This document shows, piece after piece, positions 18,365 through 64,000 of a stretch of DNA of 64,000 nucleotides. This stretch comes from Dysidea avara. Its lineage: Eukaryota; Porifera; Demospongiae; Dictyoceratida; Dysideidae. The notes beneath the pieces were generated by a model. The model ran no database searches and was not told the DNA's origin. It saw only the letters and a program-made list of their open reading frames with translations. Location of the stretch: NCBI RefSeq assembly GCF_963678975.1, contig NC_089276.1, positions 1,507,445 through 1,571,444 on the forward strand, given 5' to 3'. Numbering within the stretch: the first letter of the stretch is position 1; each line of letters opens with the position of its first letter. Position numbers and translations under genes: made by a program.

Positions 18365-19112
18365 CATGAACTGTTTCACCCACTGCACAACATGCCACAT
18401 AACTGAGTTAGCCAGCTCCTACTATTATCAGGTGGCACATCATAATGGACTATGAATACTTGCAGTAAACATTTTATAAATGGTGGAACATGTCATCACA
18501 TTCTACATCCGTGGAAACCTTAAACAAATGGTCACGTCCGAGTCGGACTTGCCGCCTACACTGATTCACAACACTCATAACAAGAAACTCATGAAATGAC
18601 TCTGAAGAGGAAAAAGGAAATAGCCAGGACTGTTGTAGCAACCATCAAAGCCAACCACAAAAGACCACATTTTTGCCATCGCTGCAAGTTTGTATGTATA
18701 GCTATAGGTAGCATATAATACAATAACTACACTAATAGATCATTTGAACATATGATACACTTTCATATATGTACTGTTTTCTCAAGTAACCTAGTCCACA
18801 ATAACAGTGTTATTAACTATCTAGAGTAACCAGTAGCTATGCAGGTATATAATAATGTGTATGAGCAATTGATTTGCACACAATGCTGAGGTTTCTTACA
18901 CAAAGATAAAGGCACCATATTATAACTTATTGCTGACATGATTTCCTGTGGGAGTCAGATTTTGAGTCCCTGAGACTCTACCAAACAACAACGTATTGGT
19001 GATCTGTTGTTACCCACCTCTATACCTCCATCAACTATCATTTGTGTCTGGCTACTAGCAGCAGCTGGACCAATAAAAGTGGTTGTGGTTGGACTTGTAC
19101 TAGCGAGTGGAT
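18365..19112 (+). pseudogene. TIKI remnant, unit A'
   Basis: Second copy of the decayed TIKI of unit A. Exon 3 pieces lie at about 18493-18590 and 18600-18685, exon 4 at about 18790-18832 (most of its 3' half lost), and exon 5 at about 18945-19035. Part of exon 6 (about 19037-19112) matches only in reverse complement, so it was inverted and truncated. Exons 1-2 are absent. It lacks the MITE present in unit A. Confidence 0.8.
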
Positions 19113-21545
19113 TACTTCAAGCTCTGCAGCACTAGTACTATTTTATGACTGTGCATTCAAACAAGGTAGCTAATGACATCATCCACTAAACCACAATGGA
19201 CTGATTTGTGTGACAAAAGAATTCAACTGCAACTACAGCCAGTCAGTGTGTGACAGTATGATGTAGTTAACTTTCTATCCAAAATGATTACGTAACTGAA
19301 AATTGTTGTGTGCATGTAGTGCATTTAAAGCAAGCGGCTGTGAATATCAGGTGATTCTTTTAGAAGCCAATGACTGTGTAGAATGCTATGATGCAAACAG
19401 AAATAGTTACTCCAATTGTGGGTCTGTATGGTGTTTCACCATATCACGCATAATAAATTTGTGACTGACCAGCTCATGAATGTTATCCACTTCATATAAT
19501 GACGATTGTAGGTCTGACATATTATTAAGCGTCTTGATTAATGCATGTTGCACTTTATATATCTAATGTTGAATGTAATTTTAGCTTGAGAAATTGACAG
19601 CAAGAGTACGTACTTTAGCTCCTTGTAATAATATTAGATTGGTCACCTTAGATGACTTCATGCATGCAGTTAGCTACTTACACGCAAAACACACAACAAG
19701 CATAACTTCATAGAGCTTTCATTATATGGCAAATCCTGCAGTACCACACGTACCAAACCAGTAAGCTGGCTCTAATAAAAGTATTAATTTGTTGGCACAA
19801 CAGCAATCACCAGCATATCAAAGAATCATTTTGAACTCTATCAATGACTGATTGTGGTAGTTTAAAGCACATGCAGACCCACTCATGCAGAAGAGACCGT
19901 ACTGGTACTAAATTGGTGTGATAAAAGTATATAGCAACATGGTTACATGTAATTAGATTGTTTGAATTAGCTACAAATTAGCGTGATGGGGCAACTACAT
20001 AATTATTTCTTATAACCTAGCAATAATATGGCTAGTAAGCAACATCTTAAAGACAACAAAGATGGCAGAAAAGCACTTACTGTAAAAGAAAAGTTTACTG
20101 TAAACAACCATGATATTCATACTTGAATAAGAATTGGCACAGTTCTCATACAGAAGTTGTTCATTCATATGTAATAACATGCTGCTAGACTCCATCACAA
20201 CAACAGTATAGGGCTCAATTTTCCATTGCTATATGTACACAGGAATCTTGACAGAATGTACAAACCACATTAGTAGCTACTGATAGTATGAATTGTCTAG
20301 ATAACAGAGCTCAATGTAAAGGATGTGGAAAACATGTACACTTTAATTTTATATACAAATTGTTCATGACTGTTAAGTAACACGGCCATACTCCATAACA
20401 CAGTAATTGTCTGTAACACTATATAGACAAAATCCAACTGATCAAGACTGGAATTATGGAAGCATTACTAGTCAGTGGTGGACCCTTTCTGAAAATAGTA
20501 CGTGTCCCTACTTTATTTATGATTCATGTGGGTGATAAAATCACCAAGTATAGTGTATTATTATATTAGGACTTTTTCTACTGGCCAAACTTCATATTTT
20601 TGCCTTTGAAATCACCATTACAGCATTCAACAGCATGTAGTTACCTCATTTTTTTTGTCTTCATAGATAATATACCTACTGACGCATTATCTATACTTAA
20701 AGCTAGGCTGAAGTTGCAATTCCAGAGTGGAACTCCTCCTTTCAAAAGTCTGGATCCGCCCCTGACAGTTATTGAAAACTTCCTCAATCTGAAAATTCCT
20801 AGATCCACCACTGCTAGTATGTAGGGAATAATCTATGGTATGAGCTATGTAGTGTCTCCTGCACAAGAAACCTAAGACTAAAATATTGCTGTATTTGTAA
20901 CATAGACTGATACACTATATACAATCATATAATGAAACAATAAATCAGCCCCATACACAAGAATAAAGTACATAAATTGTGAAACAAAAGAATAGGACAG
21001 GTGTCCACACAGCATCTCTATACATGGCAAATGTGCATGAGTGACTTATGTGAGAGGAAACCTTGTGTCCTGATTTGTTATTGGTGTAATGGCTCGGTGA
21101 TATGTGTCCTATGAAATGTCAAACATGTTTTATTTTTCTTTATTCTTCACTTGATGACATTAGTAACTCCTTGACAACATGTCAGCTGAAATTAGATGCA
21201 GACAATATACAATTCATGTGTGGATCTGCAGCTGTACAGTAGATAAGCAATGATGGTATATTAGAAGGATTGGAGGAATATAATATTTGGAGGGCAAAAA
21301 TATTGCAGGCCATGAGGTAAACTGGAGGAGTATTGAACTGGTAGCTAAACAATTGCCTGTTAAATCAACTGTGACGTATTTACTGACTTCATATAGCTGA
21401 CTGTGCAATAAGGGTTGTGCATGTACATGAGTGTTCAGAAATTATTCACCTACATATTATCAAAACTATACACTACGGTCACATTACCTTATAATGTAGT
21501 GAACTCCTTATTGTCACAAACTATCCTAATTATATAATGATTATA
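19113..21545 (-). pseudogene. FARSA 3'-end remnant, unit A'
   Basis: About 19463-19530 matches the last FARSA exon (27570-27637) on the minus strand, with deletions. The exon 12 region is missing, since the sequence jumps from the piece equivalent to about 3650 to that equivalent to about 4190. The remainder is co-linear with unit A spacer. No coding capacity. Confidence 0.7.
20473..20813. mobile_element. Non-autonomous DNA transposon, CAGTGGTGGA ends
   Basis: Ten-base terminal inverted repeats (CAGTGGTGGA) flanked by a 5-bp direct repeat CTAGT at 20468-20472 and 20814-20818. It carries an internal GGATCCGCCCCTG stretch matching the tip of the element at 58976-61231. A truncated copy is at 4630-4707. 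No ORF of note. Confidence 0.75.
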
Positions 21546-24087
21546 GCATTTCACTAGCCATAGCACTGTATAATCTTCATTCTGAGATTCTGAAGTCCAG
21601 AATTATTCTTTCACACCAAATGTGACCCCTAGCTATATTTCAAAATATTTTCATGAATGACAATCAATACCATGCAATGTATCTTAAACATGAAACCATG
21701 ATTTAAACCTAATAATGACTCAGAGCATGTTAGTGTTGAAACAACACTACAACTTTGCAATGGATATGTGAAATATAAATCCAAGGCTGCAGCACATGTT
21801 ACTGTCAGACCTTCAGTGCTGGCCACTCTAAAGCTTTAAAAATAACATCAACAGTACACTCTTGGCCATATAGCTATATACATATGATTTTCTGAATTTC
21901 TCCAATAAGACAAACTGAATCTAGTGGGTCCAATAAGACAAACTGAATCTAGTGGGTCTGTTAGCTATTGACAGAATCCATCAAGAACAGTTTCCATGCA
22001 ATGTTATGTACACAAGCAGGGATGGTTAAGAATCCCTCTCTGATGAGGTACATGCATGCATGTATGCATGGGTTCACAAAATGAGACACAATGTTACGAC
22101 TTAACTTGGTTCCCACACATGTACCAGCACACCTTCAGGATGTTGTGTAATATCATTGAAAATCATGTGATGTTGTCATTTCACATTATAAATCATAGTA
22201 CACAAGCAGACTACACCAACTATATACAGGCTGTATATACATGGCAGGGGATTTCATCATACATTCATACACATCTTCTTATCAATCTTATGAATATATG
22301 CATACTCTTAAGTAACATCATGCAGTGGTTAATTATGGGTTATTGTGGAACTTTACGTTCCACGGCTTCTCTCCTTGAGAGAGTCCACTTGCAGGCTACT
22401 ATAGCTAGCTCAGAGAATTTGTCTACAGAAGACTCAAATGCTTGAGTGGTGCACAGATCACAGGGTGGCAATGCTGCTGCTTTTCACATGGCTGCCAGTG
22501 GAGTATATAATGCTTGGACATTTCTGATGTAATCAATTGCATCATACATAAAATTTGTCGTCACAAAACATGAATGTACACATACCAATTAAAATTTTAT
22601 GCTAAAATGTTTAACTGTATGTTTGAGGAGGTCATGGTGGTGGTAGGGGTGGTGCCAGATGAGGAGACTGTGTACATTTAAAATAAAATGGGAGCGAAAT
22701 TCTACTCAGTATTTTTGTATAGATATTGTTATTACTGTAATTATGGGTATACAGGCTGCACCTTTACCCTGTACCTCATAATCACAATCACTACATTGTG
22801 TAGTGCCTAAACCTCCTAAATTACTCCTGACCACTAAATTTTTCTCTGTGTGTGTTGTGTGTGTGTGTGTGCACGCGTGCACGCACGCTCGTCTGTGTGT
22901 ATGCGTGTGTGTGCACATGTGGATAAAGATGTCTCAATGCAACAACAACACACAAGTGACTGGATTTGTAAAAAAGTATACACCTTTTAAACATACAAAA
23001 TTTGACCCATTTTTCAAATCTTAAAGCTTCATAACTTTTATATACCAATGCATATAATTGCCTGAAATTTTCCATGAGTGCAGCTAAACTATCTGGCTGC
23101 ATTTTAAAACTAGCAAGTTATTCTATATTCTTATTCTTATCCTCTTTACCAGTTAGGCACTGGAGGGCGTACACAGAAGGCAGAGCCTGTATGAGTTAAT
23201 CAGTGTAAGGAGTCAAGTGTTGAATCATTTTGTTTGCTGTCATGTAAAATGTGTAGAAAACATTTTGCAAATCTGGTCACATAGATTGTTACGTCAGGGT
23301 GGCTGCAGAAGCCAGGGCCAACTGTAGCATTACACATAGAAGGGAAAACATACCTTAGCATGAAGTATGCAAATCTGTAGTTCGGTATGCATGGAACCAA
23401 ATAATTTAGAAGTTGAATTTGAGATTTCAGCAGCTTAATAAACCAATATGTTATATACTTTACTCTTGTATTATGGTGACTGCTTTATTAGGGCAATAAC
23501 TTGATGATTTGCTTGACCCCTGTTTCCCCAAAGCCTCAGAAACCCCCCCTGGGGCTGCCCCTGATCACCATCATACTGACTATTTGAAGGATATATAACT
23601 ACACTTCATTTATGCTGTTGAAACCTGAGAACCTTTATATTACCCTACCGCAACAACTACTAGGTGTGTCTATATAAATCTAGCTGGGCTTTAGCTATAG
23701 CTAGGAGTTCCGTTTTCGAGGAACTCAACTTGAAAATAATTTAGAATTCGTTATAAATCCGGTTTAGCTACGCACAAAGATAGGCATATGGGTGTAGTCG
23801 CCAATAGGAGAGACTGAAGGAACGATAGCTAATTGTAGCGGTTTAGAAAGCAGCATTTATATCTAGCTAGCCAGCGCTATACTGCGGAAGCGTTCTTCCC
23901 AACAGAACTGACCCGTCTGATTGTCAATTTGGTACACTCCTTCGTGCATCAAAATACCGTCAACAGAACGATCATTAACAGATTGTTAATAAACCATTAG
24001 CTGCGCATGAACTGCACGCGCAATTACCCGCGTAAATATTTGCATGGTAGCTATACAAGTGTTGCAGTTTCCCGGATTCCCACTGGA
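21546..24087. other. 5' flank of TIKI-2, duplicate of 5571-7697
   Basis: Co-linear with the TIKI-1 flank apart from indels. The main extra piece is about 22647-22815 (roughly 170 bp starting GGGGTGGTGCCAG), absent from the other copy. Another insertion is at about 22920-23020. A 30-bp tandem duplication (CCAATAAGACAAACTGAATC twice) lies at 21901-21959. No gene seen. Confidence 0.6.
22850..22920. repeat. GT microsatellite
   Basis: Short interrupted TG/GCACGC array, counterpart of 6578-6690. Confidence 0.85.
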
Positions 24088-24093
24088 TATAAA
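24088..24093 (+). promoter_or_regulatory. TATA-like box of TIKI-2
   Basis: TATAAA 71 bp before the start codon, same spacing and context as at 7698-7703. Confidence 0.5.
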
Positions 24094-24163
24094 GACTTAC
24101 TGTCTAAACTGAATCGCTATAGCCAGCTACGAACCCCAAGCAGCAGCAGAACTCATTACTGAA

Positions 24164-26463
24164 ATGGCAACGTCACATATGTGGAGTGCTATAGTCACTG
24201 TGCTTGGTTGCTCACTAGTCTTTCGGCTCGTGAGCTGCTGCTCCAGCGCAGACAAGGTAAGAACGTCTTTAGGCAAAAGTTTAGCTTTTCGTGTGCGTTT
24301 GAGAGGCCATAATATCTGCACGCTTTGTGAGGGTAGCTATACATGAGGTGCATGAATGTGTAGCTTTTTTTTTTTTTTACTGCATGGAACAAATTCCAGC
24401 TACAAACTTGCATAATCTTATACTGATCATATTTCAACAGAATTCCCATCTGTGGCAGATCGGTAGTAACCCAGTTTCTTACATATTTGGTACAATGCAT
24501 GTACCCTACAACAAGTTATGGCACAATATTCCTGATAATGTCAAAGTGGCATTTGCTTCCAGTCAAGATGTGTTCCTGGAGCTGGACAAGAATGATGAGG
24601 ATACAATGAACAGCATCAACAATTGTCAACTACTACCCAACAATGATACCATCAGCAAATATGTGTCATTGAGAGTGTATAAACGACTGACCAAGTACAT
24701 GAGGAGACTGCAGAGGGAGATCCCTAAATGGTATGGTGATGGAGGAAATGACAAAGTAGCAAAGAGAATTCTTGGAAACTGGCAGCGCAAGAGACCAATA
24801 TGGGTGACCCTGCTGCTCAGCTCACTCAACAAGGAAGCTGTCGAGAACAATGATATTCCACTGTTGGATACGTTCCTAGGAAATGCTGCTCGTAACATGG
24901 GCAAACACCTCAAAGCTGTAGAAGACGTACAGGATCAATGTAGTGCATTCAACAAACTTGACAATGAACAGGTTTGTACTTGATGTACGTACATACATGT
25001 ACACAACAATAATGCTTGTTGTAGATGTGTATAGCCATTCTGAGCTGTACGCATCTGCATAAGATAATTTCTATGTACAATAGAATAGTAGCTAGCATGA
25101 GATTATCCTGTAGTTGAAGTTGGTTGTTTGAAATTTTATAGATAGATCAAATTACAGGCTTAGTTAAATGTTACATAGTTTGTTACCTGAGCTCCGTACA
25201 GTTGCTATACAGGCTGCATATCATAGCCAATGAGCCTCCCGGATTTGATATAATATTACATCATGTGCATGTTTCTATAGGCTGAGTACGTAATGAAGAA
25301 AGAACTTGATTTTTTGGATGAGCAGGGATTTGAGGGAGGGTCTGATACAGCAGAACGTGACATCAAGTTCTATACATGCGGAGATTTTGAGCAAATGGTC
25401 ATGTCAGACAGCTTGCTGCCTGTGCCAATTCACAACACCCATAATGAGAAGCAGCAACAGATTGTCAATAACATTGAGAGGCTATTAACAACTCATATGA
25501 TTGTGAAGAGGAACAGGAAAATGGCCAGGACTATAATAGCAACCATCAAAGCCAATCCCAAGAAGACTCACTTCTTTGCTATCGGAGCAGGTAAGTATAT
25601 TAGTAAAATTAATTGCTTTAAATGTATAATGATATTGTACTCTTTCTCAGGTCACCTAGTTGGCAATGACAGTGTTATTAACTATCTAAAGAGGAGAGGA
25701 GTCACTGTGCAACATATACCAAGTGACACTACTATACAAGGGTAAGTTATACCTGTATGATATTTGTGCAGGAAGTTGCTTGTATATTTGTGTGTAATTG
25801 ATTTACACACATAAGGTTTCCTACAGGCACCATGCACTGTTATAATTCATTGCTGATTTCCTGCAGGAGTCAACTACCTGAAGATTTTGAGTCACTGGGT
25901 AAATTCAAGACTTTACCAAAGAACATCAATATTGGTGACCTGTTGCCCACCTCTACACCTCCACCAACCACCCCTATTCCTCTAGGGGAAGTATCCACTG
26001 GAACTACTACACAGGAAATGTCTGACTATTGGCAACATATATATCATGAGTTAGAAACGTGAGTAGCTTGTAGACATTTAACTTGACTTCATGTAGTAAA
26101 TATTATTGTGCACTTAATAATTGTAGCTAAAGGGTAGGGCACTCAGTAACTAGCTACCACCACACACGTACAATGCCATTTGCATGGTCATGATATTACT
26201 GCAGATCTGCTACATCAAGACCAACCTATGATATGACACTTTCCACCATTTCAACCAGATCAATTAGCAGAACAAGTCCAACCACAACCACTTCTACTAG
26301 TCCAGCTGCTACTAGTAGTCAGACACAGGAAGACATCACTACCACATCACATCACAATACAGATTCTCCAATGGAGTCAAGTTCCTCTGGAGTGATGTAC
26401 AACACTACAATAATCAGAACATTGTGTCTGATAACAATTATCTGCAGTAGATTACTGACATAA
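24164..26463 (+). CDS. Metalloprotease TIKI homologue, copy 2 (unit B')
   Basis: Six exons with the same boundaries and phases as copy 1: 24164-24256, 24441-24971, 25281-25590, 25651-25741, 25867-26058, 26205-26463, encoding 491 residues. Exons 1-5 are equal in length to copy 1; exon 6 is two codons longer in the Thr/Ser-rich stalk. The TraB motifs GTMH (48-51), E78 and GAGH (310-313) are kept, as are the signal-like N terminus and hydrophobic C terminus. Most differences are conservative or lie in the stalk and anchor, which suggests both copies are under constraint or recently duplicated. Its 3' end faces FARSA, 1.07 kb away. Expected role: extracellular inactivation of Wnt ligands. Confidence 0.9.
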
Positions 26464-27531
26464 TATAACTAGTAATGTGTGTACATTTTTAAACTTCACT
26501 GTGTCTCAGTATAATAGACTATATTGTATTTTAAGCTCTACTAGTACTACTTGCATTCAAGTACGGTATGTAGCTATAATGAAATCACATGCAACATTCC
26601 TTTCTTGTTTAATAAACAAGCTACATACAGTACAGTACCAAGAAATCGGCAATTATATATGTACTTTACAAGGTTTCATGTGCAGCTGCTCTAGGCTATA
26701 AAAAAGTCAGTGGGTTTATACAAGCATGTGTGCGCAGTAATATGGCTATGCAATGAATATAATATCACATAAGCCAGATCAAAGAAAACATTAAACAATT
26801 AATGTATATATATAACATTTGTTTATGTAAACTGTCTGGATGAACAGACTATAGATGTGCATGCATACTGCAACTGTGGAATAACAACAGTTGTCAAAGG
26901 AATGCACACTGCATAACTTAGTTATCATCTCAAATGTGTTGTAGTAAAATATTTTAAGGGAGCAAACCTGAGGAACAGTCACATTATATAGCTAGTCTAG
27001 CAAATGTATTAATTCTCTGATACACAAACTCTGTATATTATATGATAAGTCATCAGACTACTGTCTAAGCATGTTGGATGTTGTGTATTTAATGTTGGAA
27101 ACAAGTGTAAATACATAAATTTAAAAAATGAAAAAAAAAACTGGTTGTAACACAAGGTATATGAGTAAACAGTTTTATACATGCTGTATATGCTGTTAAC
27201 AAAATGCTCATATCCTCGAAATACAGACCCTATAAATATCTCAAGTTATACATACAAGAAACATACATTGTTACTGAAATTGAAGAACATGAGACAGTGA
27301 TATGTAGTAACTGACTGGTTTGATAGTGGTATGCAAAACAATAGCTGGTATGCTTGGTTACAAATAAAATTATCTTCCCAGTTGCTATGCCACTTAACCA
27401 AATTAGACAACTTGTCAAACTGATACTACAACACTTGGTCATCCCACACCATCTCATTAATCATTATATTGTTATTAACAACATTCATCAATTGATATGA
27501 AATATTCTAATCCACTCAAATTACAGCTCTA
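26464..27531. other. Convergent intergenic region TIKI-2/FARSA
   Basis: No gene seen. A poly-A run lies at about 27120-27140. 27230-27531 is shared with 11130-11450 and is the 3' flank of FARSA. ORFs are short and not conserved between the two copies. Confidence 0.5.
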
Positions 27532-30500
27532 CTAGTTCTCTAGTCTACATATTGGGTTAGTGTAGACCATCTCAAGGTTGACCTTGTGACCGACTAGTTC
27601 ACGAATATTATCCACTCCATACATGATCATCGTAGGTCTGAAATGAGTATCACATTAACATTTTGTATCATGTATATGCTTTACATGCAAAGTTAAGTAT
27701 TATCTTTTGCGTAATACGAATGGTAAATAAGATAAGAATAATGCTATTATGTGCATGGCTGTAAATGTAGTTTTAAGCATACCATATTTCCTTGGTTAAA
27801 TGTCATACCTTCAATAGTAACTGCACTTAAGCGGTGCCACAATCGATTTTAATTGAGTGGTGGTTGAGTTCAAATATTCGCTGCATCGACTTTTCAAACC
27901 AAGGCAATAAATGCTGTGGTGTTTAACCAAGTATATATGGTACTTACAGAGATAGTTAGACTTTGGCCCTTGATTAACATGCACCCTCAGTCAGTATACC
28001 ACACTGTATGGTGTTTATGCTATCACATTTAATAGTGCCACTACACATTTGAACAGTGTATCACACAAAATATAATGTAGGTGTCACTTTATCAGTAAAT
28101 ATTACACCTGTGAAAATCTTTCCCATCTTTTAAAGCAAGATTTACATCTTTTGTAAGCAATATAACCAAATAAAATGTATCACGTTATGAAACTAACTAG
28201 TGACTTCTTATATGATACAGTTTAGGAGCATTAGTTGGAGCAACTGAATGTAGTAATAATTGTATTAATATAGTTGTCCTTCTTATGTACGACAGGTTAA
28301 TGTGTAAAAGTACGTCCAGTGCAGCAGTATTATTGGGAAAATTTTGTTGTCCTAAATTTCAGGGGGGAAAGATAGTACTGCTGTGGTAAAAAACAATATT
28401 TGAAATTTGACAAAGACGGTACAGAGACAAGAAGTTAGTTAGATTACTGCGTGCAGGTGTACACATGCATAGGATCACTATCTGATAGGGATCAAAACAG
28501 AAATTAAAATCTGAAAGTTTAATACCACAAAGCTTACCAGTGTCAGTGGTTAGTTAATATCAATATAGTTAAATGTTTACATTTTCCCTAGCTTAAACAA
28601 TCCTTTCTATATGGCTAACTACCACCAACAAGCACCCAATATAATCTTGATGCATGCATACCTCTGTTGTAAGTATTCATGGTCCCACCTGGAATACTAA
28701 GAGGGTCAGTGAGTCACCCTGGTCAGTATATTACTGGTTTGACAAGCTGGTGTGGCTCCACGTAAGTTACAGACAGCAAGACCCAATTTCAAACACAACT
28801 CACCGTTTGTGAGATTGCACATAATTTGAAGCTGCTACTGCACTCCGGCTCATCTAGTCTCTTCCTCTAGTTCCTATTCTAGGTTGGCACTTATCAATCA
28901 GAGATCATAAGCCACTTCCTTTTGTGTTTACAATAGCTAAATGATAAGTGTCATTTCAGCTGGAGAATAAGATTGTAGTGCAAATTTCTTTTCAAATCAA
29001 ATTGCCTCCATCGAAAGCTCTTGGTTATATATACTTTTGTTGTAGCACAATGGTGATTGATTATCATTACATGTGGTACAATCTGGGTTGGAACAAATTT
29101 CCACAAAGCAGACGAGACCTGTTTGACAAAGGCAGGTCTTATTTACTGTGGCCAAAGTGACCCAGAAAATCCAGGTATTCCAATACTGTTTAGTATAGAA
29201 ACAAATACATGGAAGCGTCAATGTATTTGTTGGTACAACAGAAATTAAAGTATTGTTAGCTTAAATTATCCACAAACTAAATTCTAACAATGATTAATTG
29301 GTAGTTTAACAGATAGGTGAAGTACAGACCTATGCTAATAACATGCACAAGACTCAAGCGGTAAAATTGATGCGATAAAAGTAGCAGAACCAGTACATGT
29401 AATCACATTGTTTGAATTAGCTACAAATTGTCATAAAGAGGTGCCTACATGCTGATAGCTTAACAGCCAATAGCAAATCAAATGAGGTGATGTTACAGCT
29501 AGCATCCTACGCACACTAACTGCACAAATCACAAGACAAAACTAACCTCTCCAGTGATAGCCCCCAAGCTATGACAGACACATTATCAGGTAGCCCCATC
29601 GGTAGCAACATTTCTGGCCTAAACACACCAGAGTTACCAACCTCCACCCATTTCTTGAGACCTATAAACATACAGAAAATCCTTTTACCAATGATGTATG
29701 GCTTCTTTTGTTACTATAGTTGCGAGTTAATTTACAAGTACATACGTACAGGTACATTGCATGTAGTACAGACAACATATATACAGGTATTTTAGCATAC
29801 AAATTTACTGCATCCTATAGTACATACCTTCGTGATAGCTGAACACCTCCATGCTAGGTTCAGTGTATGGGTTGTATGCTGGTTTGAATCGTAACTTCTC
29901 AATACCTGCACATATGGAAACAGAACTGTGATTGCCACATCAAACCAACACTTGGTATAAGAAAACTGCCACAACCTTGACCATGGGCGGACATAACAGA
30001 GCAGTACCTCAACAAGGGACAGAATTGGGGTTACTGCTTTAAACGTGTAGCTTGTTACATATCAATAGCAATGTAACACACTATAGGTTTACATTACTCT
30101 AATGAATTACATATTATTCTGAGGGCAGTAACTAGTAGAATATAAGATATACAACCTGCTAAACACAAACACCCCAAGCCTACAAATAACATATTTCTCA
30201 TGTATTTCAGCCACAAAACATAGCATCTTAGCCTCAGAAGCACTCCCCATGCATTATCACTCTTTGTAAATGCCTACCATGCTATCTCCAGCATTGTCTT
30301 AACTCCCATATGTACTTCTTGTGTGCTGGGTACAATTAAAAGAAGTAACATATGTTATAAATTATGGAGGTAATATCCATTACATAGTATCCGTTACTTG
30401 TTGTGTACAGTACTGCCCAGAGATAACGTTACAATCCCTTGCGAGTGTTCAAATCCAGGCCACCACTTAACATGACACACGACTGGAACACATCACCTGC

Positions 30501-40013: not shown

Positions 40014-43000
40014 ATGTCTGAGTTTTTTCGGTCAGCGTTAGGATATTTTAGCGGTACTTCGGGAGAAGAAAGCGAGTTCGTTGGACAAACAGTCGATTTA
40101 GGTAGTGGAAATAAACTAAAGATCAAGAAAGTTATCGCGGAAGGTTAGTATCAGTGGGCGTTAATTAGAAATAGTTCTGTTTTGGCTGAAAATGAACAAT
40201 AAACCAGTAGTGAAGTGGTGTATTGATTGTGATTAGTTGACTGTTCTAAGTGTTTACACATCACTTTTTTTGTAGATTTCCCAACAAAAGTTGTGTTGGA
40301 CCAGTGGGTGTTTCAGGACGTGCCTTTATTGTGTAATGCGTTGTGTAAAGGCAACTTGTGTTAAAATATTTGGTATTTAAAACTACTACGTGTATGTAAT
40401 GTAACATTTGTGTTGAATGTATGTTTCAGGACACTGCTGAAAAGCAGACTGAAGCAGTGTCCCTCAAAAAATACATAAAAACTGCCGTTACCAGTCACCA
40501 TTGTGTGAACATCAATCTTCTCAGTTTGATTTGGATATGATGTTTGTTTCACTCTTCAGTCTTTGGCCAATCTTTTGCAAGTGGCTGGTTGTTATTATAT
40601 TGTTTTAATGTGTTGACTTGGTTTAAACAAATGATCATCTATTGTCATTGTCTTATTGTTCAACCTTCTGGTCTTTATTCAGTCATTAACATGATATCAC
40701 TGACAATATCAATCAAATTAGCAACTATGAATTGTGGTACTCTCTCAACCGTGAAGTTCTTATGGCCAACCATTGTTTGTATGCATGTAGTTTGGTATAC
40801 GATATAAACCTGTCTTAGCCACCAGAAGGTCACCTTTTAAAAACTGCCAAATAGAAAATAGATTTCCCAAGTGCTGTAAATAGTCCACTTGTCTAACATA
40901 GCCTCCTGCTTGTTAAGGGAAAAAATTCATGGCCTGCCAGTTTTAGACATCCAGATACCATTGTCATTTAGAGAGAGAAAAATAGCTGATATTTCTTGTC
41001 CATTTTCTTTTATAAATTTTCTGGTATCGGTACATAATTTGATGTGCTATTAATGGTTGGGTGAAAATCTGTTTGTGTAGCGAGATATGTGGGTCTAGAA
41101 TACTTATTGCAACTTTTACCAGTAAAATACAAATGCAGACTTTGTTGAAAAGAATTTAAATATTGTTTTTAATGTCAGTTTCATACAAATCAGTGTAACA
41201 CAATAATTTGTAATGATGAATAGCCACATTCATACAATATTGCGAATAAAACTTCATCTGTCGTTCTGCCCTACTGTGGAATTAATTTGCCTTTTATCTG
41301 CTCTTCATTACATCCAGGTCAATTATTAATCAAGGTTTTGTTTAGGGAAATTTAATTCTCTTGGCCCGACTATATTTGTATCAATCAGACCTGCCCTAGT
41401 ACCCCCCCATGTGCTGAATTAGTATGTCTATTGTGACATGTGGTGCGTTTGACATGTTACAGTGTGTACCATTAAATTTTATGTGTATGTACCAGTACTA
41501 GTCAAATATAGTATGCTGTAATACTGTCTTACCCTTATAAGTGTTGTGTGTCATTGTGTGTATACTAGTATTTTAAAAAATTGCTAATTTAAAAATGAAT
41601 CAAGAAAGAGTAGTGAAACAAGAGATGAATGATGGTATTACAGTATAGCTCAGGGGAAAGTCCCTACTTTGGCATTGAGCAAAATTATAGCTAATTTGCC
41701 ATAGTAGGGACTTTCCCATCGAACTATATATGCTGTAATACCATCATTAATCTCTTGTTTCACTACTTTTTCTTGATTGCATAGACCCCTACTTCATTTT
41801 TAAATTAACAATTTTTTTAAATACTAGTTTTTTTTAATTGTAGCACAGCTAGTTACAGTGTAACTTGTGACTGTTCTATTAGCTTATTAAACTACGTACT
41901 GTGCCAAAATTGGAAGTACATAGGCCCGTAGTAGCGTGCATAGCTTACCTTTGATCATAGTAGCAGTGGTGCTCAGATTTATGACCTGCCTCAGTACGAT
42001 GGTCTATGTTCTATCCCCCCCCCCCAGGTCAGAAGTTGTTCGAACGAATAGGCCCTTTCAGTTGTCTGGAGCTTAGTCTCGACTAACAGGATGAAGTAAT
42101 ACAATTTCCACTCGTGTACTATTCAATCACTCGCTGATCTCGCCATCCGACACTGAGTGGCCAAGTCAGTGTGTTCAGAGGAACAAGCTGTCGAGTATTG
42201 GTCCATCTCAAATCTTTTCATTGATTGCAGTCCAGGCATTGGTAAAAGTTGGAGTGACAACTCAGTGGCCTTAATGTTTCACGTGCAACACTTGAAATTA
42301 TAAGCGAAATTATAAGCGCCCCGCTCTTTCAGCTGCATAAGCGCTTTCTGAAATAATTTTGTGGTGTCTACAGAAAAGTGTTGATACCAAAAATTAATGC
42401 CTCGGTATGGTTTCGATGCTTGACAACCAATCTGATTGAAGATAAAAGGAAGGAAAGGCGCACAGGGCGTACACCCGTCTGAACCCCAAAAGGCACATCC
42501 CACTGGTGAGTTTGTTGTTGTGACGTAAAATGGTGACCGTGCGCTGCTTTGTTTTGGCTCTAGGCTTGCAACTGTGGTCAGTGAGTGAGAGACGAAATTT
42601 CAAGTTTTGGAGATTTTTTAAAAATTTTATATCCGGTCATCAGTGTTTTCTTGTTTTTAATGGACTAATGTTATTCTGTAAAGGTGATTTTTGTGGCATA
42701 AGATGTCTCTAGGATGGTTTTTGAAGGCGACATTTTAGACAGCTCGCGTCATTTTCAGGGGATCCCTACTTAAACAGTACTACCGTACTGTTTGATACTG
42801 TTGAGTGTGTAGAATGACTTCAATTTTCTGTACAATTGTCGGTTTACGATACATGTAATGTTTGACTTGATAAATCATGGTGAATATTTTACAGTATAAA
42901 ATGGCTATATCATGTCAGATGTATAGTTACTGGATGATATAGTTCTGAAAGTTGTTGTAGCACTAACACTGGAGAATAGCACAATCTGCTTGGGACTTGC

Positions 43001-55438: not shown

Positions 55439-55880
55439 ACTGGGGTTGGAGGGATTTTTTTCCTTACTTTGGCCCCTTTTCTGTTACACCTTTTCAGCTA
55501 TAAGTCACTAAGTCTAAGTCCTTGAAATTAGGTTAGGTAATCCTAAGGCTGCAGCACATGTTGCTGCAGACCTTCAGTGCTGGTCACTGTAAAGCATTTA
55601 TACAATAATAAATACTTTAGGATTAAGGAAGAAAATCCATCCCTCCTGGAGGAGACTGAGTGTGGCCCCAACTAGACATTGGGTGACCTGCAGTTCGATT
55701 CCTGGGGTTGGAGGGATTTTTTTCCTTACTTTGGCCCCTTTTCTGTTACACCTTTTCAGCTATAAGTCACTAAGTCTAAGTCCTTGAAATTAGGTTAGGT
55801 AATCCTAAGGCTGCAGCACATGTTGCTGCAGACCTTCAGTGCTGGTCACTGTAAAGCATTAATACAATACAATACAACTA
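55439..55880. repeat. Two tandem SINE-like copies
   Basis: 55444-55610 and 55706-55872 are near-identical (from GGGGTTGGAGGGATTTTTTT to GTCACTGTAAAGCAT). The second copy is preceded by GCAGTTCGATTCCTGG, which fits a pol III B box, and ends in an AATAC tandem tail. The first copy lacks that head and looks 5'-truncated. The tail segment also occurs at 5789-5850 and 21777-21838. Confidence 0.6.
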
Positions 55881-56760: not shown

Positions 56761-57697
56761 CATGTGGTTGTTACTGGAGTGATACATACATTATTTTTGC
56801 ACTATTAAGTGTTAGTTCCTAACCTTGTTATAATGGTCTTTTACAAGTGAAAAAAACTATTTCTACAACTAGCCCAAACCTGAGACCAGGGGGGGGGACA
56901 TATAAACACAATTTCTTTGTGTTTGAAGTATTTTGTGTTCTATATTGTCATGATAGTTGTGTAGCAAAATGTCAGTGAAGGGAATGATTGAAGGGATTTC
57001 AGGGGAGTGTGGGAACATATTAATTTACATAGTTGAAACATAATTGTGGCAAGATGGAATCTGGAGACAAGTGACTGAGATATGGAGCTAGGAAATAGCA
57101 AATAAACTTACAGTGACGTACAAGCCAATTCTTTAGATCAAACTATTGTTTTATAAGTAGTGTTGTTTTACCTAAAACTAAATCCTATTTTAGTAAGCAT
57201 AAATTACCTGACTTTTAGCCGGTGTACTATAAAACTAAAATGTTTTTTTGCTACTGGTAGCTACTCAGTAAAACTAAAATGAAAACCTATAGCTACTAAC
57301 TTGAAGGCAATTATTTTATATCAACACTGGACTGTCCATAACTATAAGTTGCAATTCAGTTTAGTGGACCAAAGTGGAAAATGTTTGAAAGTGGCTATCT
57401 CAAGATTGGATCTTGAGGTACTTTTAGTCAAATCCCTGTATTAAAACATGCACAGCACATGTATATATATTTATATTAATATTATGTAAATTTTGACTTT
57501 ATTCTTTTCTGTGGTGCAGTTGATATTTAGTCTGACTTTTACGACTTACAACTATAAACTTTTTTGGCCACAAACTAAACTAGCCCCTTTTTTAGCCGCT
57601 GTCCTAGCCTAAGCTATCAGTTACATATGAATATAAGTTGAACCAGCCCGTTTACTGCATGAGCAACAAATGGGCGTGGCTGATCATAACGGACCAA
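56761..57697. other. Intergenic region before the upstream transposon
   Basis: No gene seen. 56761-56850 repeats sequence of 55326-55435 (GTGTTAGTNCCTA, GGTCTTTTACAAGTG), so the LINE piece may have been inserted beside a local duplication. A G run lies at 56888-56896. Confidence 0.4.
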
Positions 57698-58575
57698 CAG
57701 GCCCGTAGCCAGGGGGGGTTCGGGGGGTTCTGAAGAACCGCCCTCTTGGAAAAAAGGTCCACAATTTCAGTAAAAAGGTCCACAATTTTAGCATAAAGGT
57801 CCATAATTTAACCAAAAAGATCCACAATTTTAGTATACAAGTCCAAATTTTCAGGAGCAAAAGTCCATTAGCTACAGTTTACTAGATAGCACTAATAAGA
57901 AGCTAAATTAAGTGCTCCAAGTAACTTATTCAGTGCTTGTATTATATGCAATGCAAGATCGAGATACTCTAATAGAGCAGTCAACCACTCTAATAGAACA
58001 ACCACTCTAATAGAACAGTCACGATTACATTTTCTTTTAAAAGCTACTTAATTTACATGTAGATTGTCTAAACCGAGCTTTCATTAAAATGTAAGATTTT
58101 GGTAGAAAAGCCTCTCCATACAGAGCCCACGAATAGCACCCATACTTCAACTCCATGCAATGTGTAAATTTCATTGTTTAAGACACCCTTTGTTCTGCTC
58201 CACTGCCCCTGTTGATCATGGCAGAGTGCTCAATCTTTCCCATTCTTATTCACTGTGACATTCCAATATATTATATTTAGATACATGCATGTGCAGATGG
58301 TATACAGTAGCAGTATAGAGATATTTTTCCAGATATCATCCATACAGCTGGTCTTCAGCTTACCTAAAAAATTGTTATTTATTGACTGAAATGCCACTAA
58401 ATTCAACCTTTTAGTACCTATTTTCAAAAAATTTCCTGGGGAGGCATGCTCCCAGACCCCCTAGTTTTAGCATGCTGGGTGCGCACACCATAATATAATC
58501 TGAAACATGTCATATAAAAAGGTCTACTTTTCTTCTAAAAGAGCCTACCCAGATAAAAGTCTGGCTACGGCCCTG
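57698..58575. mobile_element. Non-autonomous DNA transposon with CAGGCCCGTAGCCAGG ends
   Basis: 878 bp. Ends CAGGCCCGTAGCCAGG and CTGGCTACGGCCCTG are inverted with two mismatches, flanked by direct repeats ACCAA at 57693-57697 and 58576-58580. A short array of AGGTCCACAATTT units lies at about 57765-57860, and three copies of the dispersed motif at 57957-58022. No transposase. It sits 96 bp before the kinase-kelch start codon. Confidence 0.85.
57957..58022. repeat. Cluster of the dispersed TACTCTAATAGA motif
   Basis: Three consecutive copies (ACTCTAATAGAGCAGTC, ACTCTAATAGAACAACC, ACTCTAATAGAACAGTC), the first preceded by GATCGAGAT. Other copies are scattered through the window. Confidence 0.8.
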
Positions 58576-58592
58576 ACCAATAATGAATGTGG

Positions 58593-58598
58593 TATAAA
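58593..58598 (+). promoter_or_regulatory. TATA-like box of the kinase-kelch gene
   Basis: TATAAA 74 bp before the ATG, in the short stretch left between the upstream transposon and the start codon; similar spacing to the TIKI genes. Confidence 0.45.
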
Positions 58599-59148
58599 TG
58601 CAGTTTTGCACAATTACAGGAGGTGGGAAGTTTACATAAGACAAACCCATTTCATTTCCGATCCCATTCAAATGGCGTCATTTCTAGCAGCAGCTGAAAA
58701 TCTACGTCACCTTAAGATTCCTAGTTCTCGGGTGAGACCAATTGGAGTGGAACTAGGTCGAGGATCGTATGGGAAAGTTTTCGAGGTGAAATACGATGGA
58801 AAGTCGTGCGCCAGTAAAGAGGTTCATCGTTGGATGATGGAACTTCCCACTGCCGAAGAACAATCGAAAATAAAAGATGATTTCTTGCGAGAATGTCACT
58901 TCTGGAGTACTCTACGTCATCCTAACGTTGTACAGTTCCTAGGAATTTACTATCCTTCTAGTGACGAGTCCGTACCAGGGGCGGATCCAGAGTCTGGAAA
59001 GAGGGGGGGCACCTTGCTGAAAAAAGTTGAAGAGCAAAAAAAAAAATAAAAAAAAGGTCACAACAATAATAGCTAGTTATCCTTTACCAAATATATTATA
59101 TCACGTATGTTATGTAAAATAAAATCCTATTTATAGCTTCATAAGTAA

Positions 59149-61087
59149 GGCCCCTATTTGGTGATTATTAGTTTCTCATCCACCGCCCGCATCCTCAGTT
59201 CTTAAGCTACCGCATGGTAAGCCATTATTTACTCCGAGCATGCTCAGAAGAACACGTGATACCAAACTGTTATAATTTTTGTTGATGAACGCTACAATGC
59301 GCTATATATCACCAGGAGAACTGTTGTTTTCCTTAGCAAATTGCTGCAGTGCCAGTTGCAATCGTGCTCTATCGACTTCATCAAAGCAGGCTTTCAGTTG
59401 ACTGTCGAAAACGAGGGGTCACCAACTCACGAAAAAGTGGTACGGATTTTAAAATCTTAAACAAATTTCTCAAGATTTCACGGGTTTCAAAAGATTTCGC
59501 AAAATCGAACGAGAGCTGCAAAATCTGATTTTAAATTACAGGTTGGTGTAGAGTGATAAGTTCTGAAATCACCAAAAAGTAGTGAGAGAAAGAAACAGAA
59601 GTTCAGCAGGCATGTAAGAGCAAGGCCTCACGAAATTGAGAGGAATTGTGAAGCCATATAAAACCAGGAGTAAAGCCTTGGCATAACTATTAAATGAAAC
59701 CTTACAAAACCAGGAGCAACTCGCAGCTGAAGCCCTATAAACCAGAAAAAGGAGGGGAAATCCCGTGCGAAACCCCTCAAAACCAGGAGCAACTGTCAAA
59801 GCTCTATCTGGTGTGAAACCCCACAAAACCAGGAGCATCTCAGTGTATGCTTAAGTTGCTTTTGTAGTTGGTGTGTTGCTAAGTTTATGAAGTTTTGCTA
59901 AGTTTATGTTGCTAAGTTTGCAGTTTGCTAAGTAAATCCATTCTTACTTTTGTGCAGGAGCAGTTTGCATGAATTCCCCAGGTTTTGTTTGGCTTCTTTC
60001 CCACAGCTCCTGGTTTTGTTTGGCTTCCACAAGTCGCTTAATATAAATCGGCTTCTTTCCCACAACTCCTGGTTTTGTTTGGCTTCCACAACTCGCTTAA
60101 TGCAAATCTGAAACGGAGAGGAACATCGGATTTCATTCTCAATTCGATTCTCTCCTGGTTTTGTATGGCTTCTTTCCCACAGCTCCTGGTTTTGTTTGGC
60201 TTCCACAGCTCGCTTAATACAAATCTGAAACGGAGAGGAACATCGGATTTCATTCTTAATTCGATTCTCTCCTGGTTTTGTATGGCTTCTTTCTCACAGT
60301 TCCTGGTTTTGTTTGGCTTCCACAACTTGCTTGATACAAATCCGAGGCGGAGCGGAACATCGGATTTCATTCTTACGTTTGTGCAGGAGCAATCTGCATG
60401 GATTCTCCTGTTTTGTGTGGCTTCTTTCCCACAGCTCCTAGTTTTGTTTGGCTTCCACAACTCGCTTAATACAAATTCGAAACGGAGCGGAACAACGGAT
60501 TTTATCTATATACTTTTGGACAGTTTGCATGGATTCTCTCCTGGTTTATTTGGCTTCTTTCCCACAACTCCTGGTTTTATTTGGCTTCCACAACTCGCTT
60601 AATAATATAAATCCGAAACGGAGCGGAACATCGGATTTCATTCTCTCCTGGTTTGTGCGGCTTCTTTCCCACAGCTCCTGGTTTTGTGTGGCTTCCACAA
60701 CTTGATTATACAAATCCGAAGCGGAGCGGAACATCGGATTTCATTCTTACTTTTGTGCAGGAGCAGTTGAGTGTAAGCTACGGTACCAGAACGAGTATAG
60801 AATCAGAATCACGATAACAACATAAGATTTCGTATTTCAGGCAGGATTTTACTGGAGGTGTACGAGATTTCGAAGCAGTTGGTGACCCCTCGGTCGAAAA
60901 ACAGTTGGCGATCACGAAAAGTAGAATCAGCTGGTGAAGGAAATGTTTGTAGTAAGAAAGAAAGACAATTTGGACAAGGTCTGTACATCAGTGTGTTAAT
61001 ATTATAAAATAATGGTAATACCCTCCCGCCCGCATCATAATAATTAGAAAGGCTGGATGAGAAACTAATAATCACCGAATAGGGTCC
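59149..61087. mobile_element. Nested PIF/Harbinger-like element
   Basis: 1939 bp inside the previous element. Terminal inverted repeats 59149-59182 and 61054-61087 agree at all but two of 34 positions, and TAA is duplicated on both sides (59146-59148, 61088-61090), as in PIF/Harbinger elements. Subterminal inverted pieces include GGGGTCACCAACT near 59419. No transposase seen, so non-autonomous. Confidence 0.8.
59630..60770. repeat. Internal tandem repeats of the nested element
   Basis: A unit built on CTCCTGGTTTTGTTTGGCTTCC, followed by ACTCGCTTAAT and CGGAGCGGAACATCGGATTT, recurs about 6-7 times at 60000-60760. AAACCAGGAGCA units in the opposite orientation lie at about 59660-59840. ORFs of 85-175 codons here are repeat artefacts. 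Confidence 0.85.
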
Positions 61088-61109
61088 TAAGCTGCACTGC
61101 CTCATGAAC

Positions 61110-61150
61110 ATTGTGACTGCTTTATTAGAGTAATTGACTGCTCTATTAGA
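61110..61150. repeat. Two copies of the dispersed TCTATTAGAGTA motif
   Basis: TGACTGCTTTATTAGAGTAA then TGACTGCTCTATTAGAGTAT followed by CTCGATCT, within the outer transposon, close to its right end. Confidence 0.8.
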
Positions 61151-62903
61151 GTATCTCGATCTTATATGCAATTTCTTGAAGGGGGGGGGGGGGGCATTTG
61201 CCCCAAATGCCCCATCCTGGATCCGCCATTGCGTACTGCCTGTTATGGTGATGGAGAAGATGCAGGAGAGTGTAACATCACTGGTAGATAAACATGATAA
61301 TATTCCCTTACTGGTGAAACTGTCAATACTACGATGTGTCTCTAGGACTGAGGTATCTTCATGGTCACAATCCTCCAATTGTCCACCGAGACTTGTCTCC
61401 TAATAACATCCTGGTGACCCTTCATCTTGAAGCAAAGATCACAGATCTCGGTGTGGCAAAGACAATGACGATGGGTCCAAACAGCAAGACGATGACTAAA
61501 ACTCCAGGAACTGTTGCGTTTATGCCCCCAGAGGCATTGGACGATAAGCCAGTATATGGACCACCATTAGATATGTTCTCTTTTGGAGGTGTGATCCTCC
61601 ACATCACTAGCCAACAATGGCCTACTCCAAAAGCTGTGAAGCAGTTTGATCCCAAGACAAGGAAACAGATAATGTTGTCACTGAGAGGTAGAACGACGTC
61701 AAGAGTACATAGACATGATGATTGGAAATGATGCAGATTTGAAGCCATTGGTTGTGTCATGTTTAGAAGATGATCCAGAGTTACGTCTTCCAGCAGCAAA
61801 CATGTCTGAGAGGATCAGGATGATGAAGGAAGAGTACAGCAAGAAGACATCTCATGATGGTATGGACCCCATCTCATGTTTGGCTGAGATACAAGCATCA
61901 ACACAGTCATCAGCTGAGATCAAACAAACATCAACACAGTTAAAGGTTTGTTAGTACACAGCTTATGATGTATTAGTATAAATGTGATATTGTTTAGCAA
62001 CAACTGGTTGTGAAGGAGTCCACCATACCTGACTTGTTCAGTGAACCAGTGAACATCAAGTGGGAGGAGGGAGCCCCTGCACCAGTGAGTAGGGCTCGAC
62101 ACACTGTAGTGTTGTGTAATGGAGTGATTTATGTGGGAGGTGGCATGACCAAAGGTGATGATGATACAATACAATTCCCCCACACACTAGACATGTATCA
62201 TCCAGACTCTAACACATGGGACACTTTTGATACTCCACATGAATCATTTGCCATAACAGTGTTGACTGGTAATGTTGTTATTATTGGTGGGAGAATTAGA
62301 ACAAGTGGTGAGCTCACTAACAAGGTACTTGTACTGGAGAGTGGCCAGTGGAAAGACTATACAGAAATGCCTACAGCAAGATGTAATGTCATTGCTATTA
62401 GCCACCTGTCAATATTGATAGTGATGGGTGGTCAGGATGGTAAGGACACAATCAGTACAACAGATCTATTTGATGCTACTACTGGCCAGTGGTTCAAATG
62501 TGATGATCTCCCTCAACCACTTTACTGGTCACAATCAGTCATAGTAGGTGACACAGTGTATGTGTTAGGTGGGTCCACTAAAGAGAAACCCTCTACAGCA
62601 GTGTATGCTGCTCCTCTTGATACTTTGTCTAGTCACCAAGTAAAGTGGCAAAATCTGGTAGATACTCCATGGGGTGGTCCAGCTGCTGTTGGTCTGAATA
62701 ATAAATACTTGTTAGCAGTAGGTGGAAATAATATTTACACCCTCAACTCTACAGCTACTACATGGATGACCATTGCAACTCTTCCAGTATTGACAAGTGC
62801 CACAACAATTATTTGTGATGACCAATGCAGATTAGTAATGATCGGAGGATGGGATAGGATTACAAGACCTACCAACAAAGTATGGATTGGATCATTCCAG
62901 TAG

Positions 62904-63714
62904 TGAGACAACACACAATTTGTATAAATTATATTTTATCTTTTGTTGTTCGCAACCTAAATTTATATTTTTACTGATAGTCAATAGACTACAAAGGCAA
63001 TGAAAACTTTTATATTATAACAAAGTAGTGTATTGTTATTATGGTATCAGTGTTAATGGATGTTGCATCAAAGTATTGTGCAGATTGTTTTAATAATTTG
63101 ATAAAGTTTGAGTTAAGGCCGCACCCTTTTTACAGCTGGGCTGTTTTGGATTAGATATCATTTGTTTTTGTATTTGTATAATATAGCTATGCTGGTATTT
63201 GTCTACCTTTTTTTTCCTACAGGAAAACAGAAGAACTAGACTCTATACATTATTGTATTCATATTAGCTAGTGCATGTATGAATTAATAAGTACATACAT
63301 GTATGGATGACTTTCACATTGATAATCAACATGTACATACTGTAATGAGTTTGGAAAATTTGCTCTACACTATCTCCCTTAACAGTCATCAATTACACAA
63401 GACTTGCAGCTTAAAATTCTTTGTAGCTCCCAGCCAACTACAGGTACTATAATACAAACCAGTTGCTCTCTAGCAGGAAGCTCTCGAGGTATACTAAGTG
63501 AAACACTAGTCCGTACAAGCATAGAGTGATTACCTCGCACTATATGATGCACACCGTGCGGAGCTTACCCTACTTCAAATTAATACGTTCTATGCTGTAC
63601 ATGAAAATATATTAACACCAACTACTCCAGCTCCAGACTACATAATACTATTATACCTGGCTACATTATGCATACATCACTAGGACAATACCCAACATCT
63701 TACTTCACTAATGA
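62904..63714. other. Convergent intergenic region kinase-kelch/GBA
   Basis: No gene or repeat recognised; AT-rich 3' flanks of the two converging genes. Confidence 0.5.
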
Positions 63715-63934
63715 CTAATACAGGAAAGTTTGTATGCTATGAGCTAGTACAGTGATCTTAACAGCTTGTTTGTTACTGCCAACCACATCTAACAATTTGA
63801 CAGTGACTGGCTGTTGTCCTCTGTTCATCACTATGACAACCACCATCTTAGTAGGGGTAAGGAAAGCAACTGCCTCCAGAGATGAACCAATCACAATGTT
63901 GGATATCTTTATGGATCCTCTGGGAACAAACTTG
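63715..63934 (-). CDS. GBA: Lysosomal acid glucosylceramidase, last exon (partial gene)
   Basis: A minus-strand exon opens after a TTTCTAG acceptor and encodes 72 residues to a TAG: SKFVPRGSIKISN..., then LEAVAFLTPTKMVVVIVMNR, ending AHSIQTFLY. This matches the C-terminal beta-sandwich of GH30 glucosylceramidases (human GBA has HFSKFIPEGS..., VVVVLNR... and a SIHTYLW end). The first base completes a serine codon split by the intron. The rest of the gene lies to the right of the window. Product: lysosomal hydrolase cleaving glucosylceramide; the catalytic residues are not in this exon. Confidence 0.8.
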
Positions 63935-64000
63935 CTAGAAAGTTATGAAAGACTGTATATTAAATTGTGTATATGATTAATTTTTAAATTACAAAAAAGA

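Follow-up and report, generated by a model that had tools for sequence, protein, structure and literature searches.

What broke a kinase-kelch gene in the genome of the sponge Dysidea avara, in what order did the damage accrue, and what kind of gene was it beforehand? The locus lies in a window of 64,000 nucleotides (the whole stretch of DNA that was analysed), and its features are collected in the table below. The gene belongs to a large kinase-kelch family and is very probably on its way to becoming a pseudogene. Its lesions, all read from one assembly, fall within the kinase exon: an insertion, a 2-bp loss and a 4-bp gain, i.e., one insertion and two frameshifts that leave the kinase frame broken. 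Translation from the normal start would yield about 125 residues, consisting of the N-lobe and 24 residues read from the inserted element.

Features of the interrupted kinase-kelch locus, in window coordinates
Feature	Position	Strand	Remarks
Upstream MITE, 5-bp duplication ACCAA	57698..58575		ends 14/15
Kinase exon, pre-insertion part (101 codons + 1 base; left CGTAC included)	58672..58975	+	Pfam Pkinase E=6e-8
CGTAC, left copy of 5-bp target duplication	58971..58975		
Whole insert (limits are the ends of element A)	58976..61231		
Element A, ~314-bp MITE, hAT5-like	arms 58976-59148 and 61091-61231		inverted ends 13/15
Element B, in A	59149..61087; own DNA 59149-59411 and 60893-61087		arms 32/34
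Element C, in B, 1481 bp	59412..60892		ends 16/16; tandem repeats inside
CGTAC, right copy	61232..61236		
Kinase exon, first post-insertion frame	61236..61331	+	identity with paralogues
Frameshift 1, 2 bases lost	between 61332 and 61333	+	
Kinase exon, second frame; HRD, DLG, PPE motifs	61333..61679	+	Pfam Pkinase E=2.5e-22
Frameshift 2, 4 extra bases (placement +/- a base or two)	61680..61683	+	
Kinase exon, third frame (C-lobe tail), up to donor site	61685..61945	+	
Intron, 52-bp, phase-0, GT...AG	61946..61997	+	sequence
Kelch exon, open	61998..62903	+	Pfam Kelch families, best 1e-22

Among solved kinases, the kinase exon scores best against CTR1 (82 bits) and TNNI3K (68 bits), which we take to be TKL-type kinases; unlike these, it is followed by a kelch exon, and DLG mostly stands in place of DFG (16 of 19 paralogues examined). 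The piece ahead of the insertion runs from the glycine-rich loop to beta4, and the first frame beyond it holds beta5, the hinge and then a helix. The 32 residues of that frame are 81-100% identical in paralogues where the stretch is intact, and 72% identical in the more distant L097. The kelch exon, in which we read from the sequence six blades plus a closing strand at the N terminus, is open throughout, as an earlier note on this DNA had stated; a single-sequence fold of it (mean pLDDT 53) was too uncertain for use. The gap between kinase and kelch exons is about 5.3 kb in sister gene L098 and about 3.3 kb in L099. Upstream, a further MITE reaches to within 96 bp of the kinase-kelch start codon, and it has ends similar to those of element A together with a common subterminal repeat (a 41-bp match at 95%).

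The same note had taken CGTAC as the exact point of insertion, and this holds: its two copies abut 15-bp terminal inverted repeats, and the reading frame does resume once the insert is taken out together with one copy of the duplication. For comparison, in ten Markov-1 simulations of a 64-kb sequence, such structures averaged 0.7 per sequence, all kinds counted. The site is uninterrupted in all 18 aligned paralogues of the same 551-Mb genome, and a single CGTAC occupies it in six of them (L071, L074, L079, L087, L098 and L099). The insertion does not fall between hinge codons, as had been supposed; 304 coding bases precede it and 304 mod 3 = 1, so it lies inside a codon, after the first base, ahead of but near the hinge. 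Alignment to TNNI3K places it at the start of strand beta5, and alignment to CTR1 places it one residue before the gatekeeper. An insert-free allele was sought in the genome and none was found, the nearest full-length DNA match besides the window being at 86%, and the nearest partial matches, from paralogues L069/L070, being at 91-94%.

While the kinase-kelch gene is indeed interrupted, the single transposon of the earlier note proves to be three nested ones, in which A carries B and B carries C. The left arm of element A was scored at 40 places in the genome (window included) at 96-100%, out of 1769 candidates; both ends are present in 18 of 19 other copies examined, these copies measure 304-334 bp, and in all 18 the duplication is exact and 5 bp or longer, so that the 5-bp target duplication typical of hAT5 is found at the window copy and at 18/18 others. 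According to PMC12730594, the hAT5 group of hAT transposons has 5-bp target duplications, and both element A and the upstream MITE resemble the group in such duplications and in ends starting CAGGGGC and CAGGCCC/CAGGGCC. Element A differs in being short and non-autonomous, and it is known here from its ends and duplications only. A second paralogue, L100/L088, has two related MITEs in its kinase exon, with 5-bp duplications TTACT and ATCAC.

Element B is flanked by TAA at 59146-59148 and 61088-61090, and by this duplication and its ends only we take it to be PIF/Harbinger-like. Its left part was scored at 40 places (window included) at 97-100%, out of 934 candidates; TAA stands on both sides of B in the window, L122 and L123, which have the same inner junction and count as one insertion event only. 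Element C, in turn, is bounded by the 8-bp duplication GTCGAAAA at 59404-59411 and 60893-60900. It has dozens of matches in the genome, the closest being L061, which differs at 3 of 1481 bp; seven other copies were examined, and the exact 8-bp duplication typical of hAT elements is found in five of the six that have both ends.

The A(B) composite recurs at two other loci, with an identical A/B junction and with 5-bp duplications CTGAT and CACTA. The same inner junction combined with different 5-bp duplications at three loci shows that A(B) moved as a unit, and one of its moves was into the CGTAC target of the kinase exon. In the other two composites the target of C is empty, and its halves overlap there by exactly 8 bp; C probably arrived after A(B) had landed in the kinase exon. 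Nested MITEs and composite non-autonomous DNA transposons consist of an element within an element, with duplications flanking each level, and A(B(C)) shares this arrangement at every level; it differs in that the A(B) pair is itself found at three loci as one unit, one copy of which received a third element. As a broken gene, the window locus is ordinary; its dissection exposed a two-MITE composite that is found, as a single mobile unit, at three places in the genome.

Of two further 2-bp losses previously described, the one after 61332 is real, its two bases being present in 18/18 aligned paralogues, while the other is in fact a net 4-bp gain. The gain appears in none of 17 aligned paralogues, 14 of which have nothing at that point and three an in-frame +3. 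Considered as a transposon excision footprint, it gave by eye no clean fit to a 5-bp or 8-bp duplication, and it is left unexplained. Both small frameshifts might instead be sequencing or assembly errors, with the insert as the sole real lesion, since small indels could in principle arise in assembly and indels are a common long-read error. Neither, however, lies within a homopolymer, a 4-bp gain is an unusual form of error, and the coding sequence stays open for 303 bases ahead of the insert and for 903 in the kelch exon, all of which makes this account improbable.

Was the A(B) insertion the blow that killed the gene, as the earlier note implied? A(B) has 3 private substitutions in 769 bp in the window, and by this count, as by the 3 differences in 1481 bp between C and L061, the insertion is young. 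Over up to 1011 bp of the kinase exon there are 17, of which 14 replace an amino acid and 3 are silent, and from this contrast decay probably began earlier. The excess of replacing changes points the same way: 14:3 compares with 6:10 when the nearest two open sisters form the baseline (P=0.013) and with 20:19 when three do (P=0.039), although adding L072 brings it to P=0.097, and P ranges from 0.003 to 0.09 with the choice of baseline sister genes. These ratios are suggestive only, and the gene was probably under decay before A(B) inserted, with constraint on it already relaxed when the composite came. Against it, no substitution-derived stop codon is present in any exon piece, so the decay cannot be old. 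Towards its 3' end, moreover, the kelch exon departs from each of the four close paralogues at 31-39 of some 189 bases; this points to gene conversion or to faster change there, and could inflate the private counts elsewhere.

That A(B) struck first, with the two frameshifts and the replacing changes following, is unlikely but has points in its favour, in that the three lesions all lie within the kinase exon without any nonsense change and the ordering tests against it are only moderately strong. Against it, the insert's 3 changes contrast with the exon's 17 (Fisher P=0.011), and even at the insert's upper 95% rate 17 or more changes have P=0.08. Part of the 17 is expected anyway, since the branch leading to this gene predates the insert; the case against an insertion-first order rests on the replacing-change excess. 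On paper, the in-frame ATG at 61715 would allow a functional kelch-only protein to start beyond the insert; the kelch exon is open over 301 codons, and the ATGs in frame with it at 61715-61862 read through the phase-0 intron. We think such a product quite improbable, nonetheless, since at low divergence the kelch exon would be expected to stay open by chance (P=0.38 at 1%, a rough figure with an assumed indel rate), the exon's private changes (20 replacing to 3 silent) give no sign of constraint, and the first ATG within the exon, at 62145, is inside blade 1. Changes in the kelch exon of three open sisters are also mostly replacing (27:12; P=0.14 versus the window). Finally, the insert has several pyrimidine-rich CAG acceptor-like sites and might be spliced out as a new intron; two frameshifts would persist after splicing, and the stretch from 61181 to 61256, which spans the right boundary, has no AG, so that exact GT-AG removal is impossible and this account highly improbable. 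The kelch-only and splicing readings were rejected on these points, in favour of a pseudogene in the making.

The family to which the window gene belongs is large. The kelch exon has 132 matches in the genome (window included), of which 94 are close to full length. For at least 61 of these 94, a kinase exon lies on the same strand in the 25 kb upstream, compared with at least 15 for the 25 kb downstream; the window gene has the kinase-then-kelch order on the same strand. Beyond the sponge, a search of the kelch against viral contigs gave no match, one against plasmids gave seven distant bacterial records, and the kinase piece matched 59 loci among genome contigs, all bacterial, with identity of at most 50% over short segments; these 59 were set aside. 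Within the family, kinase dN/dS is 0.15 for sister pair L098-L099 and 0.15-0.41 in 16 pairs; for the kelch, dN/dS over the whole exon rises above 1 in just 2 of 22 pairs. By these sequence comparisons, the kinase is more constrained than the kelch.

The kelch varies chiefly in its BC and DA loops, where 56 of 90 positions are variable versus 43 of 195 elsewhere. Turns of the other face serve as a partial control: CD is variable at 2 of 29 positions, and AB, at 10 of 24, is intermediate. Pooled BC and DA loops give pN/pS of 1.58 (one-sided P=0.014) and the rest 0.57, in windows set after seeing the variability profile, and the pattern was repeated in pairs outside the four genes that first showed it (5/7 pairs). 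According to PMC6720452 and PMC6650413, the kelch proteins KLHL20 and K13 bind through a face made up of the BC and DA loops, and positions in these loops are reported as the most conserved in K13. Like these BTB-Kelch adaptors, the sponge protein has a kelch propeller; unlike them, its kelch is joined to a kinase rather than a BTB domain, and the loops most conserved in K13 are here the most variable part.

A possible reading, which we hold tentatively and at somewhat less than even chances, is that the intact relatives are a large set of cytosolic recognition kinases, in which a conserved kinase is paired with a kelch ligand face (the BC/DA loops) diversifying under positive selection; clustered and partly near chromosome ends, they would turn over through duplication and MITEs in the manner of immune or allorecognition receptors, with the window copy as a casualty. 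The normal product would be a cytosolic TKL-like kinase whose kelch propeller putatively binds varying partners, and the window copy may have left the sensor set by birth-and-death turnover. PMC12909245 describes the NOD-like receptor repertoire of D. avara, a demosponge sensor family with many members that sit in local clusters. The kinase-kelch family resembles it as a large, locally clustered putative sensor family in a genome of similar size and differs in its kinase-kelch architecture; the term kelch is absent from the main text of PMC12909245.

Taken as a whole, the locus opens onto a large kinase-kelch family that varies in the loops used for ligand binding by other kelch proteins, with a more conserved kinase attached. 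For the question of how early-branching animals recognise microbes or non-self with germline genes, this family gives testable candidates.

At this locus, inspected base by base from 57500 to 64000, the earlier note's observation is borne out in part. The CGTAC duplication does mark an insertion, as claimed there: its two copies abut the 15-bp inverted ends of the 2256-bp insert, a single CGTAC stands in six paralogues, and the insert is missing from the site in 18 of 18 paralogues aligned. Pfam recognises a kinase on either side (6e-8 before the insert, 2.5e-22 after it), and kelch in the exon that the 52-bp intron precedes. When all 64 kb were scanned for 13/15 inverted ends plus an exact 5-bp duplication, five such structures were found against a mean of 0.7 expected from 10 simulated sequences; two are the insert and the upstream MITE, and a third results only from a repeat that these two share. 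The break was misplaced between hinge codons, since 304 coding bases precede it and it therefore falls inside a codon. Alignments with TNNI3K and CTR1 disagree by a few residues on the break, which falls at the start of beta5 in the former and one residue short of the gatekeeper in the latter, and both place it ahead of the hinge. In the fetched loci, sister-gene homology stops between the end of the upstream MITE and the start codon, and this MITE may, to judge from the sequence, have displaced the promoter.

Features of the window and of the broken kinase-kelch locus
Feature	Position	Flanking duplication	Description
Segmental duplication	1-11551, 18367-27633		in pieces, 74-92% identity; two copies of an ORF pair, a putative TIKI-type metalloprotease
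Imperfect palindrome	41564-41828		265 bp; 77% identity to own reverse complement
168-bp repeat	55440-55607, 55702-55869		99.4% identity; 262 bp apart
Upstream MITE	57698-58575	ACCAA	ends 96 bp before kinase start codon
Kinase exon	58672-61945		broken, + strand
Insert (A, with B and C nested)	58976-61231	CGTAC (58971-58975, 61232-61236)	ends match at 13/15 positions
Element B	59149-61087	TAA	arms agree at 32/34 bases
Element C	59412-60892	GTCGAAAA	16/16 ends
Lesion 1	61332/61333		frameshift
Lesion 2	about 61680-61683		frameshift
Intron	61946-61997		52 bp
Kelch exon	61998-62903		+ strand

An insert does split the kinase exon, but what had been taken for a single transposon is three nested elements, each repeated in the 550.8-Mb assembly (108 contigs; window at G000:C5:1507445-1571444). 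The 173-bp left arm of A has 40 scored places among 1769 candidates, the window's included, at 96-100% identity. Beyond the window, 18 of 19 fetched copies retain both ends; all 18 are flanked by exact duplications, 5 bp or longer, and measure 304-334 bp. Its 5-bp duplications make A hAT5-like, such duplications being described as a mark of hAT5 in a passage of PMC12730594. The 263-bp left part of B likewise has 40 scored places (934 candidates, window's included; 97-100% identity). Element C has dozens of genomic matches, one of which (L061) differs at 3 of 1481 bases; among seven copies examined elsewhere, six have both ends and five of those six an exact 8-bp duplication. At two other loci, L122 and L123, B lies inside A at the identical junction, with CTGAT and CACTA as outer duplications, and the halves of B overlap by exactly 8 bp, the empty C site. 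By these junctions, A(B) has moved as a single unit.

Two 2-bp losses had also been claimed in the kinase exon. The first holds, both bases being kept in 18/18 aligned paralogues; the second is instead a 4-bp gain, because the four extra bases occur in none of 17 (14 have nothing, three an in-frame +3), and its effect on the frame is the same. Beside this site, another paralogue (L080) has TGA where others read CGA; kinase exons have therefore been lost by different routes. In yet another broken paralogue, L100, an A-family MITE (7368-7711 in gene orientation, duplication TTACT, with a left arm 96% alike to that of A in the window) interrupts the kinase exon, followed about 140 bp on by a related MITE with ends CAGTGGCGGATTTAG and CTAGATCCGCCACTG and duplication ATCAC; these were a chance find in alignments and, as not all fetched loci include the full kinase exon, no hit rate is derivable.

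Predicted translation from the normal start yields 125 residues, the final 24 from the element. Exact splicing-out of the insert is ruled out, the stretch from 61181 to 61256 being devoid of AG. In-frame ATGs from 61715 onward could give a kelch-only product, as the earlier note proposed. The open kelch exon is no evidence of function, since it would stay open with P=0.38 at 1% neutral divergence (indel rate assumed).

The insert is young, and decay of the gene likely preceded it, although this is not proven. The argument turns on an excess of replacing changes. Over 769 aligned columns, A(B) carries 3 private substitutions in the window (4 in L122, 2 in L123), versus 17 in up to 1011 bp of kinase exon (Fisher P=0.011), of which 14 are replacing and 3 silent. 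The ratio is 6:10 in the closest sisters, L099 and L098 (P=0.013), 20:19 once L071 is included (P=0.039) and 40:27 once L072 joins them too (P=0.097). Allowing for neutral change after insertion, the probability of at least 14 replacing changes is 0.003, 0.030 or 0.088, depending on the baseline. Kinase dN/dS is about 0.77 on the window branch (arithmetic from pairwise values) versus 0.15 between sisters. Gene conversion is a caveat on this order, given that in the last kelch-exon block, about 189 bases long, 31-39 positions separate the window from each of its four close paralogues. Taken as a whole, the locus is ordinary pseudogene formation in which the record of nested and composite transposons is unusually clear.

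The kinase-kelch family is a larger finding than the broken locus. Searched against the genome, the kelch exon has 132 matches (counting the window itself), of which 94 span at least 260 of 301 residues (stops in eight); the assembly shows no near-identical second copy (allele) of the locus. The fetched set comprises thirty loci, the window among them, with longer stretches for three of these (L098, L099 and L100, extending L069, L070 and L088). In L098 and L099, 95-97% identical to the window over the N-lobe, the four kinase pieces share a single frame, which around the C-lobe stays open for 330 and 337 residues. Intron length varies greatly, the kinase-to-kelch gap being about 5.3 and 3.3 kb in these two versus 52 bp. 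Using the best 150 kinase matches, a kinase exon lies on the same strand no more than 25 kb upstream of at least 61 of the 94 kelch exons, versus at least 15 with one downstream. Near-full-length kelch exons lie less than 3 Mb from a contig end in 37 of 87 cases on contigs of known length (14.4 expected), with a P of 1e-8 that is too small because clustered genes are not independent. On contig C9, they are densely strung near one end (about 0.07-2.5 Mb), and upstream of some, at about 13-14 kb, lies a kinase exon.

Where kelch dS is below 0.5 (22 pairs, one including broken L088), kelch dN/dS is 0.41-1.83, exceeding 1 in two; in the 16 with a kinase value (0.15-0.41), it is higher for kelch in 16/16, the pairs sharing genes and so not being independent. 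HRD is present in 15 and DLG in 16 of 19 kinase pieces (L088's partial), and one has a stop codon; part of the paralogues look, by sequence, not catalytically intact.

Among L098, L099, L071 and L072, variable residues number 33/48 in BC loops, 23/42 in DA loops, 10/24 in AB turns, 2/29 in CD turns and 31/142 elsewhere; with the AB turns in between, a strictly one-face reading loses some force. BC and DA together give 56/90 versus 43/195 (P=1e-10), and sliding these windows in even steps gives 20-47 of 90; loops were placed by GG and W landmarks rather than by structure, and the test is not blind because windows were picked after the profile was viewed. In four separate close pairs pooled, pN/pS reaches 1.58 in BC+DA (120.7 of 761 vs 22.3 of 223; one-sided P=0.014), compared with 0.57 outside. 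Silent change is somewhat raised in these loops too (P=0.036), which could reflect conversion or mutation bias. In KLHL20, a passage of PMC6720452 has BC and DA loops forming the substrate face; K13, whose most conserved positions are reported to include ones in the BC and DA loops (passage of PMC6650413), is the opposite of this family with its variable loops. Kelch genes or domains shift expression in two sponge studies (PMC6208332, PMC11000336), the relevant passages being silent on kinase joining, and no title on a kinase-kelch family in sponges or elsewhere was among the matches listed from open-licence literature, so that published work on one may still exist. The surroundings of the locus hint at a possible diversifying recognition family, worth separate study.
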